27,826 bases of DNA from a virus. The position numbers and the translations under genes were made by a program. Below, piece by piece: positions 6,431 through 15,659 of the stretch (position 1 is the first letter of the stretch; each line of letters starts with the position of its first letter). The DNA lies in the IMG/VR virus record IMGVR_UViG_3300028041_000007, positions 1-27,826 of that record; one strand, 5' to 3'. The notes beneath the pieces are model-generated. The model ran no database searches and had not been told where the DNA came from. It worked only from the letters and a program-made list of their open reading frames with translations.

Positions 6431-6728
6431 GGGCGGCCTCCGAGCGCAGGGCGAGGATTTCCATGTCCGTGCGGCGGACCTCGTCGCGCCAGAAGCGGAA
6501 GTCTTCGGCGTTGCCTTGCAGGGCTGCCTCCCACACCAGTTCCATGTAGTCGCCGGCCAGCAGGCTCAGGGTGGCGATGTGCTCCTCCCGCAAGCTCAGG
6601 CGCCCTGTAGGCGCTGGGCTACGCGAACACGCGCCGCAGGAGGCTGAGCAGTTGCGCGCGCCCGGGGAAAAATCAAAGTGGGCAATTTCGCGCCCAGCAG
6701 ATGCGAGCGGGGAAAAAGAGGGGGTCAT
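6423..6728 (-). CDS. Small phage protein of unknown function (101 aa)
   Basis: The C-terminal half is a well-formed helix pair (REEHIATLSLLAGDYMELVW, then FRFWRDEVRRTDMEILAL). The N-terminal 40 residues are odd, with a Cys/Ser/Ala run (NCSASCGACS) unlike a folded domain. The start at 6728 follows AGGGACGG, and the gap to the CII-like gene is 20 bases. The real start could be further in, for example near REEHI. Function unknown. Confidence 0.5.
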   Translation of the reverse strand: MTPSFSPLASAGREIAHFDFSPGARNCSASCGACSRSPAPTGRLSLREEHIATLSLLAGDYMELVWEAALQGNAEDFRFWRDEVRRTDMEILALRSEAAHA

Positions 6729-6748
6729 GGTGCTGCCGTCCCTGTTCG

Positions 6749-7159
6749 TTAGGCCGCGACGCGGCCGTTCAATGCGTTCACCAGCACCACGTTCGCGGCC
6801 TCGGCGCGCTGCAGGCGCTCCTCCATAAGCCGAAGTTGGCGCTCCAGTTCGGTCTCGCGCTTGCGCAGGCTGGCGAGGTCGTAGCCGCGTGCGTGCAGCA
6901 TCCACAGCAGAGGCGCGTCGTTGCCGCACTTGTCCATGACCTGGACGAGCTTGGGCCACTCGATCCCCTCCTTGTCGTTGACCCAGCGGGACCATGCGGA
7001 CTTGTCGACGTCCTTGCCCTCGCTGGTTTTGACGGCATCCGTGACCTGCTTGGGCTCGAGTCCGGCCGCCTTGGCACACAGGCCGATCGCGCCGCCGAAG
7101 GTCTTCTCGCGCACGATGTCCTGGGGGGTCACGTCAGAGGGAAATCCGAGTTGGTTCAC
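6749..7159 (-). CDS. CII-like phage regulatory protein (136 aa)
   Basis: This looks like a phage regulatory protein of the CII-type group. The N-terminal part holds a helix-turn-helix-like segment (IGLCAKAAGLEPKQVTDAV, then DKSAWSRWVNDKEGIEW). A central motif NDAPLLWMLHARGYDL is typical of this group, and a coiled coil (LRKRETELERQLRLMEERLQ) probably mediates oligomerisation. Start is GTG at 7159 with GTGGAG upstream. It lies just downstream of the Cro-like gene and a terminator, the place of cII in lambda. A role in choosing lysogeny is inferred from position. Confidence 0.6.
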   Translation of the reverse strand: MNQLGFPSDVTPQDIVREKTFGGAIGLCAKAAGLEPKQVTDAVKTSEGKDVDKSAWSRWVNDKEGIEWPKLVQVMDKCGNDAPLLWMLHARGYDLASLRKRETELERQLRLMEERLQRAEAANVVLVNALNGRVAA

Positions 7160-7205
7160 AACGGCTCTCCACTTAGTTGATTGGTGTTGCGAGGCTTCGG
7201 AGGCG

Positions 7206-7243
7206 AAAAAAAGGGACAGTCGCGGCTATGACGCGACCTGCCC
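7206..7243 (-). terminator. Intrinsic terminator just downstream of the Cro-like gene
   Basis: On the minus strand the order is GGG, CAG, a one-base bulge, TCGCG, a 7-base loop, CGCGA, CTG, a one-base bulge, CCC, then seven T. This makes an 11-bp stem with two bulges followed directly by a T run. It lies two bases after the Cro-like stop codon and before the CII-like gene. That is the place of lambda tR1, so expression of the early operon probably needs read-through or antitermination. Confidence 0.75.
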
Positions 7244-7245
7244 TC

Positions 7246-7488
7246 TCAGTTGCTCCTGCTGCCCGCGCCGCTCATGGCGTCGGCCGTATCGCGGCCCCAG
7301 TGAAAGCCAGGGCACAGGCGCTCGCGCGGAATGCCGGTGAGGCCTTCGACGTCCACGGCGTGACGCGCCGGCACGTAGCCCGCGCGCTTCCAGTCGGACA
7401 TGGTTTGCTTCGAAAGTCCGAGCGATGTCCGCAGGGCAGTACGCCCTCCGGCTTTCTCGAACACCTCGTCGATCACGGGTTTAGCCAT
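7246..7488 (-). CDS. Cro/YdaS-like transcriptional repressor (80 aa)
   Basis: This is a small helix-turn-helix DNA-binding protein. It starts MAKPVIDEVFEKAGGRTALR and has the recognition segment GLSKQTMSDWKRAGYVPARH, then VEGLTGIPRERLCPGF, as in YdaS-type Cro proteins. It would bind the operator region upstream of itself and oppose the divergent repressor. The ATG at 7488 has no ribosome site and lies six bases after a -10 hexamer, so its mRNA may be leaderless. An in-frame ATG at 7524 would place the promoter inside the gene and is less likely. Confidence 0.75.
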   Translation of the reverse strand: MAKPVIDEVFEKAGGRTALRTSLGLSKQTMSDWKRAGYVPARHAVDVEGLTGIPRERLCPGFHWGRDTADAMSGAGSRSN

Positions 7489-7494
7489 TCGCTC

Positions 7495-7536
7495 AGTATG
7501 AACGGCTCGTACCGCATCGGTCAAGGTCAGTCGTAC
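7495..7536 (-). promoter_or_regulatory. Leftward early promoter for the Cro-like operon
   Basis: On the minus strand: GTACGA, six bases, TTGACC (-35), 18 bases, CATACT (-10). TTGACC matches five of six consensus bases and CATACT four of six. The predicted transcription start falls on or next to the Cro-like ATG. The arrangement is shared with the rightward promoter at 8753-8794, with 28 of 42 positions identical by eye. Confidence 0.65.
7496..7512. promoter_or_regulatory. Probable operator: 17-bp imperfect palindrome over the leftward -10 box
   Basis: GTATGAAC, a central G, then GCTCGTAC. Six of the eight base pairs are symmetric. It covers the -10 hexamer of the leftward promoter, so a bound repressor would block it. 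Related half-sites (GTACGA) occur at 7531-7536 and around the promoter at 8753. Confidence 0.5.
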
Positions 7537-7543
7537 TACAGAT

Positions 7544-7571
7544 TTGGCATATGACAGCCGCTGCTTATGCT
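7544..7571 (+). promoter_or_regulatory. Rightward promoter for the repressor gene
   Basis: TTGGCA at 7544-7549 (five of six consensus bases), a 16-base spacer, and TATGCT at 7566-7571 (four of six). Transcription would begin about seven bases later, at the ATG of the repressor gene (7578). The region upstream of that ATG has no ribosome site. This resembles the leaderless cI message made from lambda PRM. Confidence 0.5.
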
Positions 7572-7577
7572 CGTTTC

Positions 7578-7988
7578 ATGAGCTTTGGTGAACGACTGGC
7601 TGCGGCCAGGCAGAAGAAGAAGATGACCCAGACCGAGTTGGGCAAAGGGCTTGGCACGGACGGCGCCGACGCCGGCAAGCAAGTGATCTACGGTTGGGAG
7701 AAGAACCAGCACTACCCGCGCGTCGACCAGCTTATGCTTATCTGTAAGAAGCTAGACGTCAGTGCTGACTTTTTGTTATTTGGCGAGGAGAGCAGCTCGC
7801 GCTTCCTCATGGCGGAGGCGGCGGCCGAGAAGCTCAACGCGGACGAGCGCGCGGCGCTGATCAAACGTCTTGCGGCGGAAGCTGATGAGCACGATGACGG
7901 GGTCTTTGACGAGTCCGCCGTAGAACGCAGCCGCTCCAATAACCATAACCAGCCATCATCGCGCCGCAAGAAAATAACAGGGCTGTAG
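7578..7988 (+). CDS. CI-like phage repressor lacking a peptidase domain (136 aa)
   Basis: The N-terminal 65 residues form an HTH_3/XRE domain: MSFGERLAAARQKKKMTQTE, then QVIYGWEKNQHYPRVDQL and LDVSADFLLFGEES. This would bind the operators between the two divergent genes and maintain lysogeny. The rest is a short helix (AEKLNADERAALIKRLAAEA) and a polar tail. No S24 (LexA-like) Ser-Lys autoprotease domain is present, unlike lambda CI. The start at 7578 is preferred to an ATG at 7551 because the domain begins there and the promoter lies between. It heads a three-gene operon ending at a terminator at 8655. Confidence 0.8.
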   Translation: MSFGERLAAARQKKKMTQTELGKGLGTDGADAGKQVIYGWEKNQHYPRVDQLMLICKKLDVSADFLLFGEESSSRFLMAEAAAEKLNADERAALIKRLAAEADEHDDGVFDESAVERSRSNNHNQPSSRRKKITGL

Positions 7989-8063
7989 AAAACCCCAGCA
8001 TCTAAGCTGTACCGCACATCTACGATGACCCTCCAACCACTTCAATTGCAAAAGAGGGTTCCC

Positions 8064-8327
8064 ATGCGGTTAGTAAGCATGAGCGATTACCGCTCGCGCG
8101 ATACGGTAGACGTTCTGAAATACCTGCTTTCCAGGGCGAAGAAGGGAGAGCTAAAGGGGGTGGCCGTCATGGCACGGCTGGCCACCGAAGGCGAGGAGAT
8201 TCTGTTCACCGACTGGTACCGCCGTCGGATGGAACGTTGCGCCTATGCGGCAACGAGGATGTACTGGCGCGCGATGCAGAACCAGGACGAGATCGAGGAT
8301 TCGCGCAATTTCGACGAGGCCGGCTGA
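8064..8327 (+). CDS. Small soluble protein in the repressor operon (87 aa)
   Basis: I do not recognise the family. The N-terminus (SMSDYRSRDTVDVLKYLLSR) and the segment LKGVAVMARLATEGEEILF, followed by TDWYRRR, resemble small phage proteins with one beta-hairpin and helices. The ATG at 8064 follows AGAGGG; the ATG at 8079 has no such site. It sits between the repressor and a membrane-protein gene, the place of rexA in lambda, so it is expected to be made in the lysogen. Confidence 0.65.
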   Translation: MRLVSMSDYRSRDTVDVLKYLLSRAKKGELKGVAVMARLATEGEEILFTDWYRRRMERCAYAATRMYWRAMQNQDEIEDSRNFDEAG

Positions 8328-8348
8328 ACGGTCACCAGGAGCACGAAC

Positions 8349-8630
8349 ATGGATACCAAGCGATCACACGCCGGCGGCTTTCTCGCGCTCGCTGCGCTGG
8401 CTCTCGGCGCCTTCACACCGGCCATCCTCGCGCCGCTGTTCGTGCTAGCTGCATTCGCGTTCTCGGCCCTTGAGCTGCGCAGCGGCAGCACGCTGTTCGG
8501 CTGCGTGACGATCTGCCTGGCGGTGCTGCAGTTTGCCCTGGTGGCGGCCCACTTCGGCGCCTTCGACAACGCGAGCGCGGCTTTCGACATTGAGCGGGCG
8601 CGCGCGATCGCGAACGAGCCGACCCGGTAG
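8349..8630 (+). CDS. Small inner-membrane protein in the repressor operon (93 aa)
   Basis: Residues about 11-41 form two tightly spaced hydrophobic segments (FLALAALALGAFTPAILAPL onward) and residues 49-72 another (TICLAVLQFALVAAHFGAF). A charged C-terminus follows (ERARAIANEPTR). No signal cleavage site is seen. The ATG has AGGAGC upstream. It is the last gene of the repressor operon, directly before a strong terminator, like rexB in lambda. A role in exclusion of other phages is a hypothesis from position and topology only. Confidence 0.7.
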   Translation: MDTKRSHAGGFLALAALALGAFTPAILAPLFVLAAFAFSALELRSGSTLFGCVTICLAVLQFALVAAHFGAFDNASAAFDIERARAIANEPTR

Positions 8631-8654
8631 CACCCCCATCCTCCCAGCAGCCAG

Positions 8655-8675
8655 GCCCGCTTCGGCGGGCTTTTT
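8655..8675 (+). terminator. Strong intrinsic terminator closing the repressor operon
   Basis: GCCCGC, loop TTCG, GCGGGC, then TTTTT. It is a perfect six-bp GC stem with a stable tetraloop and a T run, 24 bases after the membrane-protein stop codon. It insulates the repressor operon from the promoter at 8753. Confidence 0.9.
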
Positions 8676-8717
8676 GCTGCCCGGCCGTTCTCCGCTTATT
8701 CCATCGGTACAGCCTGT

Positions 8718-8758
8718 TCGTACCCGCTTAGGAAAACAAATTCTAAGAAGCGGTACGA
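8718..8758. repeat. Long inverted repeat upstream of the second early promoter
   Basis: The left arm TCGTACCCGCTTAG (8718-8731) and the right arm CTAAGAAGCGGTACGA (8743-8758) are reverse complements apart from short bulges, with an 11-base A-rich spacer. The right arm contains the GTACGA motif of the promoter at 8753-8794. It may be an operator for the repressor or Cro, or an mRNA hairpin if transcribed. I favour an operator because it abuts the -35 region. Confidence 0.6.
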
Positions 8759-8794
8759 TTCGATTTGACCTCACAGGTCCGATTCGCTCATACT
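8753..8794 (+). promoter_or_regulatory. Rightward early promoter, sister of the cro promoter
   Basis: GTACGA, six bases, TTGACC at 8765-8770, an 18-base spacer, CATACT at 8789-8794. Both hexamers, their spacing and the upstream GTACGA are identical to the leftward promoter at 7495-7536. The spacer also shares GGT, CGA and CG in register. It would drive the recombination and accessory operon from 8834 on. Confidence 0.65.
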
Positions 8795-8802
8795 GCATCC
8801 AA

Positions 8803-8819
8803 CGCCTCGCAGTGAGGCG
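8803..8819 (+). other. Small hairpin in the leader of the rightward operon
   Basis: CGCCTC, loop GCAGT, GAGGCG: a perfect six-bp stem with a five-base loop, starting about nine bases after the -10 box. It is not followed by T residues, so it is not a terminator. Size and place resemble a boxB/nut hairpin, but no boxA-like element or N protein is recognised here. It could also only stabilise the mRNA. Confidence 0.4.
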
Positions 8820-8833
8820 CATGGAGGCAGGCA

Positions 8834-8953
8834 GTGGAACTCTCGACTCTGTTGACCGACCCGGCGATGCAGCTGGTGGTCGGCCTTCTCTTTCTGCTGG
8901 CGATCGCCGGCGGCATCGTCACCGGACTCATCGCCGACGAGGTGGCGTCATGA
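8834..8953 (+). CDS. Small single-pass membrane protein (39 aa)
   Basis: A GTG start at 8834 follows GGAGG, and the stop overlaps the next ATG as ATGA. The peptide is VELSTLLTD, then a hydrophobic segment (MQLVVGLLFLLAIAGGIVTG) and a short acidic end. It is the first gene behind the rightward early promoter. Small early membrane peptides in phages may affect host division or exclude other phages, but nothing here shows which. Confidence 0.6.
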   Translation: MELSTLLTDPAMQLVVGLLFLLAIAGGIVTGLIADEVAS

Positions 8954-9192
8954 GCCCCATCTCCACCATCGAGCCGATCCGGTACGTGACGCCGGACAAG
9001 GTGTCGCAGGTTCTGACGACGCTGATGGACGGGGCGCACATCCCCTGCACCCGCGCCGTGGCGGCCCGGTATCTGGACGCTGCGCGCGGCGACGTGGACG
9101 CAGCCTGCGAGAGCTGGCGCGAGGACCACCTGCACTGGAGCGCTCGCGTGGTGACGGAACGCCTGCCTGGCTCGCTGGAGGCTTCGGAATGA
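8950..9192 (+). CDS. Early phage protein of unknown function (80 aa)
   Basis: The 80-residue product has PIRYVTPDKVSQVLTTLMDG near its start and a helical centre (RAVAARYLDAARGDVDAACE) followed by SWREDHLHW. It has no recognised motif. The start is fixed by the ATGA overlap with the small membrane-protein gene. It sits in the rightward early operon and I cannot assign a function. Confidence 0.65.
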   Translation: MSPISTIEPIRYVTPDKVSQVLTTLMDGAHIPCTRAVAARYLDAARGDVDAACESWREDHLHWSARVVTERLPGSLEASE

Positions 9193-9614
9193 ACACCGCT
9201 AAGCAGCCGCTTCGCTTTGTCAACATCCATGGCGAACGCGTCAGCACCGAGCCATTGAAGCAGGCCAAGCGTGCCGCCCGAGCGCAGCCGGAGTCGTATC
9301 ACAACGGCTGGCGTGTGGTCGGCATTCCTCCTGGAGCGCTCGAAGAGGCCGAGAGGCAGCACCCGATTACTGTCGCCGAGATCCGGTCTTGGAATGAACG
9401 CGTCGCCAATGAGAAGGGGCTCGGCAAGGCCAAGCCGGTGCCCGGCCCGTGGGACGCTGAGCGCTGGCTGAGCGACGCAAAGAAGCGCCCGGTTCGCTCC
9501 AAGCCATACGAGATACCCGAGGCCGCCAAACTCTGCGCGGAAATGGCATCGAAGGCCGGATGGCTGCGAGTGGAGGTGGTCGAGCTGAAGAAGGAAAAGG
9601 AGAAGGCCGCATGA
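9189..9614 (+). CDS. Early phage protein of unknown function (141 aa)
   Basis: The protein is basic and hydrophilic, with a strand-like start (QPLRFVNIHGERVSTEPLKQ), the segment NGWRVVGIPPGALEEAERQH, then a charged helical part (AEIRSWNERVANEK) and a Lys/Glu-rich end (ELKKEKEKAA). It has no cysteine motif or membrane segment. It overlaps both neighbours by four bases. It could bind nucleic acid, but this is only a guess from charge. Confidence 0.65.
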   Translation: MNTAKQPLRFVNIHGERVSTEPLKQAKRAARAQPESYHNGWRVVGIPPGALEEAERQHPITVAEIRSWNERVANEKGLGKAKPVPGPWDAERWLSDAKKRPVRSKPYEIPEAAKLCAEMASKAGWLRVEVVELKKEKEKAA

Positions 9615-9799
9615 ACGCCCCGCAGCAACCACACAGCGGCACGGCCGCCGACCTCCTGCGCGCTGTGCAGGACTTCAACGACCGCCACCCGGCATTCATC
9701 GCCAAGGTCTTCGCCCAGGCGAACGACGACCGCGCGCTGTTCCAGCAGATGCAGCGCCAGGACGTTCTCACCCAGGCGGCGATGGGGGATCTGCGCTGA
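9611..9799 (+). CDS. Small helical phage protein (62 aa)
   Basis: The product starts MNAPQQPHSGTAADLLRAVQ and continues with short helices rich in Gln and Asp (NDDRALFQQMQRQDVL). Function unknown. The start overlaps the previous stop as ATGA and the stop overlaps the next ATG as TGATG, so the gene is well delimited in the operon. Confidence 0.6.
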   Translation: MNAPQQPHSGTAADLLRAVQDFNDRHPAFIAKVFAQANDDRALFQQMQRQDVLTQAAMGDLR

Positions 9800-10011
9800 T
9801 GGTCGGGCCCCGTACCAAGTACCAGCACATGGAGCCGATTGTGGTGCGCCCGTCCCACATCCGCGCCCCCCGAATGCTTCGGGACTGCACCTTCGAGCGC
9901 CTGCCGATCCAGCGCAGCGCGTTCCACCGATCCGGCCGGATCGCCTCCTGGGGCGTCGCCTGCGTGGCGCTCGCCCTCGCCCCCCTCCTCTACTTCACCT
10001 GGAGCTTGTGA
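9799..10011 (+). CDS. Small protein with a C-terminal membrane anchor (70 aa)
   Basis: The first 48 residues are basic and polar (IVVRPSHIRAPRMLRD), followed by one hydrophobic segment (WGVACVALALAPLLYFTWSL) that ends the protein. This is a tail-anchor-like topology with the soluble part probably cytoplasmic. Starts and stops overlap both neighbours (TGATG). Its role is unknown. Confidence 0.6.
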   Translation: MVGPRTKYQHMEPIVVRPSHIRAPRMLRDCTFERLPIQRSAFHRSGRIASWGVACVALALAPLLYFTWSL

Positions 10012-10232
10012 TGCCTGCCGTCGCTGAACAAGACCCGATCCTCGCCGAACTGGACGAGCGCCAGTCCCTGATCAACCTGCTGCTGACGGCGCACATGCAG
10101 CTGCAGATGGTCGCGCCCGCGCACCGCCCGCCAGGCACGCGGGAGCTGCTCGAAAAGATCGACCTGCTGATGGCGCGGCGCGTGGAACGCCTCGCCGCGT
10201 GCTCGCGCGCCCGCCGCCAGGGAGCCGCCTGA
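10011..10232 (+). CDS. Small helical phage protein (73 aa)
   Basis: The product begins MPAVAEQDPILAELDERQ and is mostly helical (SLINLLLTAHMQLQMV, then RELLEKIDLLMARRVERLA) with a basic end. The ATG at 10011 overlaps the previous TGA, with GGAG seven bases upstream; a GTG directly before it is a minor alternative. Function unknown. Confidence 0.6.
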   Translation: MPAVAEQDPILAELDERQSLINLLLTAHMQLQMVAPAHRPPGTRELLEKIDLLMARRVERLAACSRARRQGAA

Positions 10233-10321
10233 TGCGCCGCTTCCTCGCCCAGTTCCGCCTGTACCGCCGCGCCGGCTTCGGACGCCTTCGGGCGCTGCGC
10301 CGCGCCTGGCTCGCCCTCTGA
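10232..10321 (+). CDS. Tiny arginine-rich peptide (29 aa)
   Basis: The 29-codon frame encodes MRRFLAQFRLYRRAG and a similar second half, with about a third Arg residues and regular Leu/Phe spacing. It would form a basic amphipathic helix. It starts on TGATG overlap with the previous gene. Such Arg-rich mini-proteins occur in several phages next to recombination genes. Its role is unknown; RNA or membrane binding is possible. Confidence 0.5.
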   Translation: MRRFLAQFRLYRRAGFGRLRALRRAWLAL

Positions 10322-10349
10322 CTTCAACCAATCCCGAGGACAACAACAC

Positions 10350-11192
10350 ATGAATGCTCTCGTCGCGCAAGAAACTCGCGCGCTGACCCAGCACGCCGGC
10401 GGCCGCATGGCAGTCGCCGAAATCATCAGCCACGTCCAGGTCGTGCAGGAGGTCATGCGCGCGGTGATGAAGGAGGGCGTGCACTACGGCAAGATCCCCG
10501 GCGCCGGCGACAAGCCCACGCTGTTCAAGGCCGGCGCCGAGGTGCTGTGCATGGTCTTCCGCATCGCGGACAACTACCAGGTCGAGGATCTGTCGACGGC
10601 CGACTGCATCCGCTACCGCGTCACCTGCATCGGCACGCACCAGACCAGTGGCGTCGTGATGGGCGCCGGCCTGGGCGAAGCCTCCTCCAACGAGGAGAAG
10701 TACAAGTGGCGCAAGGCCGTCTGCCATGAGGAGTGGGAGGAGACGCCCGCCAACATGCGTCGGGTCAAGCACGCGCGCGGCCGCCAAAACACCACGTACA
10801 AGCAGGAGCAGGTTCGCACCGAGCCGGCCGACCTCGCCAACACCGTGCTGAAGATGGCGAACAAGCGCGCCAAGATGGCCATGGTGCTGAACGTCACGGC
10901 CGCCAGCGACTGCTTCTCGCAGGATCTGGAGGACATGGACGAGGCGCTGCGCGAGCACCTGGCGCGGCACCCGGACGAGGCGCAGGCCGAGCAGCAGCCG
11001 CCGGCGCCCTCCGCCTGGCCGGACGATGCCTTCGAGCAGCAGATGGCCAAGTTCTCCGGGGCGCTGCAGAAGGGCCGGTCCGTCGACGACGTGATCGCCT
11101 GGGCTGAGACGAAGGCACCGCTCACCGACGCGCAGAAGGAGCGCATCCGCGCCGCCGCGCCCTCCCCCGCCACCGAAACCGAACCGGAGTGA
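10350..11192 (+). CDS. Candidate single-strand annealing (recombination) protein (280 aa)
   Basis: The core HYGKIPGAGDKPTLFKAGAE, followed by VEDLSTADCIRYRVTCIGTH, marks a phage family found next to exonucleases. The segment RTEPADLANTVLKMANKRAK with a conserved basic helix (MANKRAKMAMV) resembles the annealing-protein end of such pairs. I infer it anneals single strands made by the exonuclease encoded next, as Red beta/Exo do; I cannot place it in RecT, Erf or Rad52 groups by eye. Residues from about 210 are Pro/Glu-rich, with a last helical domain. It starts at 10350 after AGGAC and its stop lies just before the exonuclease start. Confidence 0.6.
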   Translation: MNALVAQETRALTQHAGGRMAVAEIISHVQVVQEVMRAVMKEGVHYGKIPGAGDKPTLFKAGAEVLCMVFRIADNYQVEDLSTADCIRYRVTCIGTHQTSGVVMGAGLGEASSNEEKYKWRKAVCHEEWEETPANMRRVKHARGRQNTTYKQEQVRTEPADLANTVLKMANKRAKMAMVLNVTAASDCFSQDLEDMDEALREHLARHPDEAQAEQQPPAPSAWPDDAFEQQMAKFSGALQKGRSVDDVIAWAETKAPLTDAQKERIRAAAPSPATETEPE

Positions 11193-11197
11193 GCGCC

Positions 11198-12940
11198 ATG
11201 CAGACGATGCACCTTGTTCCTGGCACGCCCGCATGGCATGCCCACCGGGCCCAGCACCGGAACGCGAGCGACGCGCCGGCGATGCTCGGCTGCTCGCCCT
11301 ACACCACGCGCGCCGATCTGCTGCGCCGCGTGCACACCGGCATCACGGCCGAGGTGGACGCCGCCACGCAGCGCCGCTTCGACGCCGGGCACCGCTACGA
11401 GGCGCTGGCCCGGCCGCTGGCGGAGAAGATCATCGGTGACGACCTGGCGCCGGTGGTCGGCGTGCTGGAAGGGACGAACCTCTCGGCATCGTTCGACGGC
11501 CTCACGCTCATGGGCGATACGGCATTCGAGCACAAGACCTTGAATGCCGACCTGCGCGCCTGCATGAAGGACCAGGGTAACGGCTATGGCCTGCCGAAGC
11601 ACTACCAGGTGCAGATGGAGCAGCAGCTGCTCGTCTCAGGCGCCGAGCGCGTCCTGTTCATGGCGTCGGAATGGGACGGCGACACGCTCATCGAGGAGCG
11701 CCACTGCTGGTACGCGAGCGACCCGGTGCTGCGCGCCGAGATCGTCGCCGGCTGGAAGCAGTTCGAGGCTGACCTGGCCGCCTACGTGCCGCCGGCCGCC
11801 GTCGAGGTCGCCCCGACCGGCCGCGCGCCGGAGACGCTGCCGGCGCTGCGGATCGAGGTCACGGGCATGGTGACGGCCAGCAACCTCGATGCCTTCAAGG
11901 CTCACGCGCTGGCCGTGTTCGGCGACATCAACACGAACCTGCGCACGGACAACGACTTCGCCGACGCGGAGAAGACGGTGAAGTGGTGCGGCGACGTGGA
12001 GGATCGCCTGGCCGCCGCGAAGCAGCACGCGCTGAGTCAGACCGAGAGCATCGACGCCCTCTTCCGCGCCATCGACGAGATCAGCGCCGAGGCCCGCCGC
12101 GTCCGGCTGGACCTGGACAAGAAGGTCAAGGCGAAGAAGGAGGAGCGCCGCGGCGAGATCGTGGCCGGCGGCATCACGGCTCTGCGCGAGCACATCGCGG
12201 CCCTGAACACGCGCCTCGGCAAGCCGTACATGCCGCAGGTGCCGGCCGACTTCGCCGGCGCCATCAAGGGCAAGAAGTCCCTGGCCAGCATGGAGGATGC
12301 AGTGGCCACCGAGCTGGCGCGGGCCAAGATCGCCGCGAACGAGATCGCCGACCGGCTGCAGATCAACCTCACCTACCTGCGCGAGCATGCGGGCGAGCAC
12401 CGGGCGCTGTTCCCGGACACCACCACCATCGTGCACAAGGCACCGGACGACCTGCAGGCGCTGGTGACGGCACGCATCGCCGAGCACAAGGCGGCAGAGG
12501 AGCGGCGCCTGGAAGCCGAGCGCGAGCGCATCCGCGCGGAGGAAGCGGCGAAGCTGGCGCGCGAGCAGGAGGCGAAGGCGGCCGAGGAACGCCGCCAGGC
12601 TGCGGCCGCCGAAGCAGTGCAGCGCCAGGAGCAGGAGGCGCGGCAGGCCGCAGCCACACCGGCCGACCCGCCAGCACCGGCCCCGGCCCCGACCGTCATC
12701 CCCATGCCGCGCCAGGCCGCGCCGGCGAGCGCCCCCACCCTGCGCCTCGGCCAGATCGGCGAGCGACTCGGGTTCGCCCTCACGGCCGAGTTCGTCTCAC
12801 GCCTCGGGATCGAGGGCACCCGCGAGCGCAACTCGGTGCTGTACCACGAGGCCGACTTCCAGCGCATCGGGACCGCGCTGATCGCGCACGTCCAGGGCGT
12901 GCTGCGCCGGGACGCCGCCAGCCTGAAGGAGCGTGCGTGA
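11198..12940 (+). CDS. YqaJ-type exonuclease fused to a long coiled-coil region (580 aa)
   Basis: The first 200 residues fit the YqaJ/lambda-Exo fold of 5'-3' exonucleases, which digest one strand of duplex ends for annealing recombination. Signs are PGTPAWHAHRAQHRNASDAP, then SFDGLTLMGDTAFEHKT with Asp100, Glu111 and Lys113 as likely metal-binding and catalytic residues, and HYQVQMEQQL. Residues about 220-400 are a helical domain (DFADAEKTVKWCGDVEDRLA), followed by a highly charged coiled coil (EAERERIRAEEAAKLAREQE), a Pro/Ala linker and a small C-terminal domain. The ATG at 11198 follows GGAG; a GTG at 11189 overlapping the previous stop lacks a site. The usual YqaJ length is about 200-330, so the fusion is unusually long. 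Confidence 0.8.
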   Translation: MQTMHLVPGTPAWHAHRAQHRNASDAPAMLGCSPYTTRADLLRRVHTGITAEVDAATQRRFDAGHRYEALARPLAEKIIGDDLAPVVGVLEGTNLSASFDGLTLMGDTAFEHKTLNADLRACMKDQGNGYGLPKHYQVQMEQQLLVSGAERVLFMASEWDGDTLIEERHCWYASDPVLRAEIVAGWKQFEADLAAYVPPAAVEVAPTGRAPETLPALRIEVTGMVTASNLDAFKAHALAVFGDINTNLRTDNDFADAEKTVKWCGDVEDRLAAAKQHALSQTESIDALFRAIDEISAEARRVRLDLDKKVKAKKEERRGEIVAGGITALREHIAALNTRLGKPYMPQVPADFAGAIKGKKSLASMEDAVATELARAKIAANEIADRLQINLTYLREHAGEHRALFPDTTTIVHKAPDDLQALVTARIAEHKAAEERRLEAERERIRAEEAAKLAREQEAKAAEERRQAAAAEAVQRQEQEARQAAATPADPPAPAPAPTVIPMPRQAAPASAPTLRLGQIGERLGFALTAEFVSRLGIEGTRERNSVLYHEADFQRIGTALIAHVQGVLRRDAASLKERA

Positions 12941-13293
12941 TGAACCTCCCCAAGTCCTGCCCGCCCTGCGGGAGAACTTTTGCTGCCTCAGCCGAGGAGC
13001 TGAAGGACGGCTCCAAGGGCCAGAACAAAGAAACCGATCAATTGGTGCCTGAATTGCCCACGCATCTCCTCCCCAAGCTGAAGAATGATGGTCTCCAGCG
13101 AATCAATGGTGATCTTCATGTCCTTCAAGGCGCCCGCGGTTCGATAGGCCTGGAAGACGATGTAAAGGGCGGCGAGCACCTGCAGCAGGATCCCGACCTC
13201 GTTGAGGGTCACACAGTCGATCATGCGCTGGAGTGTAGCGATGGGGTTCCCGGCTGCCGGCTGGTGCAGGCAACCCGTCTGGAGGTGACTTAA
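12940..13293 (+). CDS. Reading frame with strong start signals, overlapped antisense by a membrane-protein ORF (117 aa)
   Basis: The ATG at 12940 overlaps the exonuclease stop (TGATG) and follows AAGGAG, and the stop (TAA) touches the next gene's ATG, so its borders look operon-like. The product starts MNLPKSCPPCGRTFAAS and then becomes a hydrophilic, uneven sequence that mirrors the opposite strand. From 12988 to 13224 the minus strand carries a much more protein-like frame. The true plus-strand gene may have been short, or be a relic interrupted by the antisense gene. Confidence 0.35.
   Translation: MNLPKSCPPCGRTFAASAEELKDGSKGQNKETDQLVPELPTHLLPKLKNDGLQRINGDLHVLQGARGSIGLEDDVKGGEHLQQDPDLVEGHTVDHALECSDGVPGCRLVQATRLEVT
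12988..13224 (-). CDS. Antisense-oriented small membrane protein (78 aa)
   Basis: The product has a hydrophobic N-terminal segment (VGILLQVLAALYIVFQAY), a helical linker (DMKITIDSLETIILQLGEEM), the polar stretch RGQFRHQ, and a second membrane segment (LIGFFVLALGAVLQLLG) ending the protein. This two-TM hairpin with an ordered linker is unlikely by chance. No ribosome site precedes the ATG at 13224. TACACT lies seven bases upstream and could be a -10 box of a leaderless message, without a good -35. It faces against the operon, as lysogenically expressed cargo often does. Confidence 0.55.
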   Translation of the reverse strand: MIDCVTLNEVGILLQVLAALYIVFQAYRTAGALKDMKITIDSLETIILQLGEEMRGQFRHQLIGFFVLALGAVLQLLG

Positions 13294-15444: not shown

Positions 15445-15659
15445 GCATCGTGCTCTCAGCGCAGGAGTTACAAGCCGTCACCGGCTACAAGCGCCCGGCC
15501 GATCAACTGAAGGTGCTGCACCGGCTGGGCTTCTACCGGGCCCGCATCGGCGCCGTGACGCGCCAGGTGGTGCTGGAGCGCGCACACTACGACGCCATCT
15601 GCTCGGGCAAGGTGGCGCCGGCCAACGGCTCCGAATACCGACCGCGACTGAGGGGATGA
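15441..15659 (+). CDS. DUF4224 family protein, probable excisionase partner (72 aa)
   Basis: The motif LSAQELQAVTGYKRPADQLK, followed by HRLGFYRARIGAVTRQVVLE, matches DUF4224, short proteins usually encoded directly upstream of phage integrases. A winged-helix-like DNA-binding role, perhaps as excisionase, is inferred from this position and is not proven. The start overlaps the previous stop as ATGA and its stop overlaps the integrase start. Confidence 0.75.
   Translation: MSIVLSAQELQAVTGYKRPADQLKVLHRLGFYRARIGAVTRQVVLERAHYDAICSGKVAPANGSEYRPRLRG

Follow-up and report, generated by a model that had tools for sequence, protein, structure and literature searches.

A predicted lambda-type operator-promoter system with a new 19-bp operator sequence at both early promoters of an uncultured phage

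The closest studied system to the locus described here is the immunity region of CP-933P, a cryptic prophage of E. coli O157:H7 (PMC8630535). It combines a short CI analogue, PaaR2 (~15 kDa), with a Cro of the YdaS family and a regulator, YdaT, in the CII position; repressor and cro are divergent, the repressor operon carries extra genes, and the PL operators resemble those of PR, features that all have their counterparts in our locus (PMC8630535). Footprint and reporter assays demonstrated that repressor and Cro bind common operators, and PaaR2 and YdaS each repress PR as well as PL, the two promoters having the same -35 and -10 elements (PMC8630535). The PaaR2 mRNA is leaderless (PMC8630535), and in the immB region of the telomere phage PY54 both cI and cro were found by RACE to be expressed as leaderless mRNAs (PMC4488713). 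In lambda, the genes are ordered pL-rexBA-cI-pRM/pR-cro, and each early promoter has a pair of operators spaced by 24 bp, of which the first sits at the -35 and the second reaches from the spacer to the -10.

We analyzed a virus record of 27,826 bases (IMGVR_UViG_3300028041_000007, positions 1-27,826; the whole stretch is called the window below), for which it had been predicted that two promoters reading GTACGA-N6-TTGACC-N18-CATACT form a pL/pR pair with common operators under one repressor. Both 42-mers were confirmed in place, sequence, and extent of likeness (28 of 42 positions identical), as was a second half-site 24 bp downstream of the first at each promoter (GTACGA at 7512, minus strand; GTCCGA at 8777, plus strand). 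When both strands of the window were scanned (~55,600 places), the runner-up match to the minus-strand 42-mer (7536-7495) had 23 of 42 identities, and the best matches in Markov resamplings of 7601-13000 had a mean of 21.8 and reached 25 at most (n = 200). The identity of the pair is significant only because position fixes one arm; as GC-rich coding pairs reach 30 of 42 in a blind all-against-all search of the window, it is position, together with the operator analysis, that carries the argument. An idea-blind consensus scan of 6700-9700 returned exactly three sigma-70-like promoters against an expected 0.5, and these were pR, pL, and pRM. Repressor and cro are divergent with the operator-promoter region between them, and pL lies beyond the repressor operon, facing outward toward the recombination and integration genes (a RecE-like exonuclease at 11189 and an integrase at 15656, both on the plus strand). 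No viral contig matched the exact promoter pattern, and 6700-9700 had no DNA similarity to known phages. The features of the region are listed in the table.

Features of the predicted immunity region. Dyad and palindrome centres are given with the first T of the -35 as origin; ranks are among the 27,808 window positions.
Feature	Position	Strand	Remarks
Regulator in CII position	6749-7159	minus	Second gene of pR transcript; phrog_2345 transcriptional regulator, E 4e-4
cro-like gene, 80 aa, YdaS family	7246-7488	minus	Predicted first gene of pR transcript
pR (cro-side promoter)	7536-7495	minus	-35 TTGACC 7524-7519; 18-bp spacer; -10 CATACT 7500-7495
pR operator, spacer to -10	7495-7513		Centre 7504, +20; rank 1, pL-trained matrix
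pR operator overlapping -35	7519-7537		Centre 7528, -4; rank 5, pL-trained matrix
pRM (promoter of repressor gene)	7544-7571	plus	TTGGCA-N16-TATGCT
Short CI-like repressor, 136 aa	7578-7988	plus	HTH_3, E 3.4e-8
Repressor-operon gene, 87 aa	8064-8327	plus	No Pfam, PHROGs, NCBIfam, or PADLOC match
Repressor-operon gene, 93 aa, hydrophobic, likely membrane protein	8349-8630	plus	No Pfam, PHROGs, NCBIfam, or PADLOC match
Terminator-like hairpin with U run	8652-8676	plus	Between repressor operon and pL; fold -23.8 kcal/mol, z -3.3
pL upstream operator	8706-8724		Centre 8715, -50; rank 4, pR-trained matrix
19-bp palindrome TTAGGAA-N5-ATTCTAA, unlike operator	8728-8746		Centre 8737, -28; corresponds in position to lambda OL3
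pL (recombination-side promoter)	8753-8794	plus	-35 TTGACC 8765-8770; 18-bp spacer; -10 CATACT 8789-8794
pL operator overlapping -35	8752-8770		Centre 8761, -4; rank 3, pR-trained matrix
pL operator, spacer to -10	8776-8794		Centre 8785, +20; rank 2, pR-trained matrix

Each GTACGA half-site forms part of a 19-bp dyad, RGTACGA-N5-TCGTACY, and the window contains five such dyads. The prediction of operators common to both promoters therefore stands, with the units redefined as dyads, two per promoter and one more upstream of pL. With the left halves fixed, the score of the partner half was 24 at N = 5, none of the other spacings between 0 and 15 gave more than 15, and a direct-repeat model of the half-sites was rejected in favor of the better fitting dyad. 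For cross-validation, we trained a weight matrix on the dyads of one promoter only (the two of pR or the three of pL) and ranked all window positions. With either matrix the five dyads took ranks 1-5, with scores of at least 14.7 as against 9.3 or less for everything else. The dyad at 7519-7537 is weak, with 10 of 14 consensus positions, and is still separated by a clear gap from rank 6 under the pL-trained matrix. The same operator sequence is thus found at both promoters, at the -35 and at the spacer/-10, as in the paired OL and OR of lambda. The inner dyad halves, TTGACC and TCATACT, coincide with the -35 and -10 hexamers, and this double role explains why pR and pL have the same non-consensus hexamers; all three departures of TTGACC and CATACT from the sigma-70 consensus are in the direction of the operator half-site.

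The placement of the two promoters on either side of the repressor operon had originally been regarded as a departure from the usual arrangement. We rejected this view because the order is that of lambda, mirrored. The lambda operators OR2/OR1 and OL2/OL1 are centred at -6/+18, compared with -4/+20 in the window, and the lambda pR and pL are identical at 29 of 42 positions in the same register, compared with 28 here. The lambda operators, however, are 17 bp long and of unrelated sequence. The third operator also differs: OR3 (-29) covers pRM in lambda, whereas no site above background was found in 7540-7560, and the slot of OL3 (-26) is taken at pL by a different palindrome at -28, with a fifth operator farther out at -50. 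We handled the third operator as a variable feature, as PY54 and CP-933P also depart from lambda in operator number. CP-933P has four equally spaced GTTTAGTAA-type palindromes (PMC8630535), whereas in the window pR has two dyads and pL three. The PY54 Cro binds a single operator (OR3) (PMC4488713), in contrast to the several present at both promoters of the window.

The palindrome TTAGGAA-N5-ATTCTAA occurs once in the window, at pL only. It was considered as a degenerate operator copy and rejected, its half-sites having almost nothing in common with those of the operator. An extra inverted repeat had been noted at 8718-8758; the repeat is real and confined to pL, although imperfect (one gap), and the most fitting interpretation is that two operator half-sites face each other across this separate palindrome. 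What had appeared to be one element would accordingly comprise an added operator, 8706-8724, and a different palindrome in the OL3 slot. We also observed a hairpin, CGCCTC-GCAGT-GAGGCG, at 8803-8819, just past the predicted pL start and ahead of the ribosome-binding site of a GTG at 8834. It has a boxB-like shape or could be a 5' stabilising stem, and there is no second copy in the window.

The 80-residue Cro belongs to the YdaS family (Pfam PF15943, E 4.8e-9; 36.3 bits against a gathering cut-off of 30). Its nearest solved relative is PDB 3bd1 (E 8e-6), titled "Cro protein" in its entry, which we take to be the Cro of Xfaso 1. A homologue of the regulator in the CII position lies downstream of cro in phage L011 of the comparison set described below. 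The repressor resembles the DNA-binding domain of P22 c2 (E 4e-6), and the alignment gives it about 5 residues more than P22 c2 in the HTH region. Unlike lambda CI, which has a self-cleaving C-terminal domain, it has only the HTH, with no S24 peptidase C-terminal domain detected, and so falls outside the lambda CI/LexA type. By the curated NCBIfam cut-offs it is not a member of the short repressors RstR (47.7 bits against 80) or DicA (34.1 against 101), to which it appears weakly related. The 87- and 93-residue genes behind it (8064-8630) occupy the position of rexA/rexB in lambda or paaA2-parE2 in CP-933P, and unlike the latter they are no recognised toxin-antitoxin pair. We found no relatives of the repressor and Cro in a protein search of viral contigs, none of the repressor in genome contigs, and no repressor at 1e-8 in 399 and 398 genomes of two orders. 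With no close repressor relative in the collections searched, operators could not be compared with repressors across near relatives.

The start codons of cro (ATG at 7488, minus strand) and of the repressor (ATG at 7578, plus strand) each lie 7 nt past the last base of the -10, of pR and pRM, respectively. Both mRNAs are therefore predicted to begin at the AUG and to be translated without leaders. In lambda, by contrast, cro starts 25 nt after the -10, and the predicted leaderless cro also sets the window apart from CP-933P. In PY54 the leaderless state of both mRNAs was established by RACE, whereas here it is only predicted (PMC4488713). Among related phages, with -10 elements assigned by eye, the cro start is again 7-8 nt after the -10 in L003, L005, L006, L008, and L014, whereas L011, L015, L026, L045, and L046 have ordinary leaders, so that predicted leaderless cro recurs in 6 of the 12 phages examined; a wider count over the YdaS genes of 61 genomes yielded too few clean divergent loci. 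Given the precedents of PY54 and CP-933P, we regard this as a testable detail and not a new phenomenon.

As the repressor had no close relative in those collections, we assembled a comparison set of phages with a related RecE-like gene and looked in each for two similar 42-mers in divergent orientation. In 11 distinct other phages, and one near-duplicate, a promoter in the cro-repressor gap was matched by one 1.2-4 kb rightward. In this set, own-pair scores were 27-34 and scores across phages averaged 21.1 (sd 2.05), the own-pair values being inflated because only relatives with a detected pair were kept (the other loci showed none or excluded the region). Most of the high cross-phage scores came from comparisons between phages whose operators are of the TTACC type or close to it (L006, L051, L046, and L020). 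The left arms of the pairs are located in the cro-repressor intergenic region, and most of the phages have palindromes at about -4 to -7 and at about +18 to +20.5. Within one phage, pR and pL have operators in common that are mostly unlike those of other phages; the layout is constant and the operator letters vary. In L006, L008, and L046 the Cro proteins have a near-identical putative recognition helix (SxGYLRKA) together with TTACC-type operators, and their repressors look different; Cro and operator thus co-vary at the cro-side promoters of these three phages.

We wondered whether the likeness of pR and pL might only reflect two sigma-70 promoters with similar hexamers and no common operator. 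The hexamers do supply 12 of the 28 identities, and the all-against-all coding matches show what chance can produce, but 16 of the 30 positions outside the hexamers also agree, the hexamers in common are non-consensus variants, a dyad model built from one promoter places the sites of the other at ranks 2-4, and the upstream site 8706-8724 is no promoter element at all. We consider this explanation scarcely credible. Hardly better placed, and very improbable, is the proposal that only the pR pair is functional, with pL a decayed duplicate or tied by the extra inverted repeat to a different signal. The palindrome in the third slot and the operator at -50 are indeed peculiar to pL, but all three pL dyads outscore the weaker pR dyad, which argues that pL is not decayed.

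A further alternative accepts the dyads and assigns them mainly to the YdaS-type Cro or another phage regulator, the 136-residue HTH protein acting elsewhere. It draws on the co-variation of Cro and operator in L006, L008, and L046 and on the extra residues near the HTH of the window repressor, yet repressor and Cro have operators in common both in lambda and in CP-933P (PMC8630535), and we judge it improbable. It is also conceivable, though unlikely, that the locus departs from the known switch in two ways, with the pR operator and -10 abutting the start codon so that cro and repressor mRNAs are translated leaderless, and with TTAGGAA-N5-ATTCTAA replacing OL3 as the site of a different regulator; if this were true, pL would receive an input that pR does not.

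Taken together, the cross-validation, the lambda geometry, and the phage-specific pairing of promoters in relatives strongly support the original prediction, and we put at close to nine in ten the probability that the region represents the OR/OL operator-promoter system of a temperate phage of the lambda type, a pL/pR pair with one operator set and one repressor. The short HTH repressor, as a dimer or higher oligomer, would bind the dyads at both early promoters, one dyad lying over the upstream edge of the -35 and the other over the spacer and -10, such that occupancy would block RNA polymerase at pR (cro, the CII-like gene, and replication) and pL (recombination and integration) together and thereby maintain lysogeny. 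The most likely role of the YdaS-type Cro is to bind these sites as well and tip the switch to lytic growth, and looping between OL and OR may be possible over ~1.2 kb. For the identity of the binding protein, the order of binding, cooperativity, and any looping, we infer from lambda and CP-933P.

On this reading the locus is a known genetic switch whose binding sequence is new, rather than a novel type of system. Compared with CP-933P, it has a new operator sequence and differs in the third slot of pL, and its less ordinary features are the predicted leaderless cro and repressor mRNAs and the different palindrome in the position of lambda OL3. The recurrence of predicted leaderless cro offers a testable side point. 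For an uncultured phage, the analysis provides a sharply defined predicted operator, and comparing pL with pR in the same genome allows the operator of a phage to be deduced cheaply with nothing but its sequence. Across phages of several proteobacterial groups the operator letters vary but the lambda layout persists: pL and pR each have a pair of operators spaced by 24 bp, the first at the -35 and the second extending to the -10.
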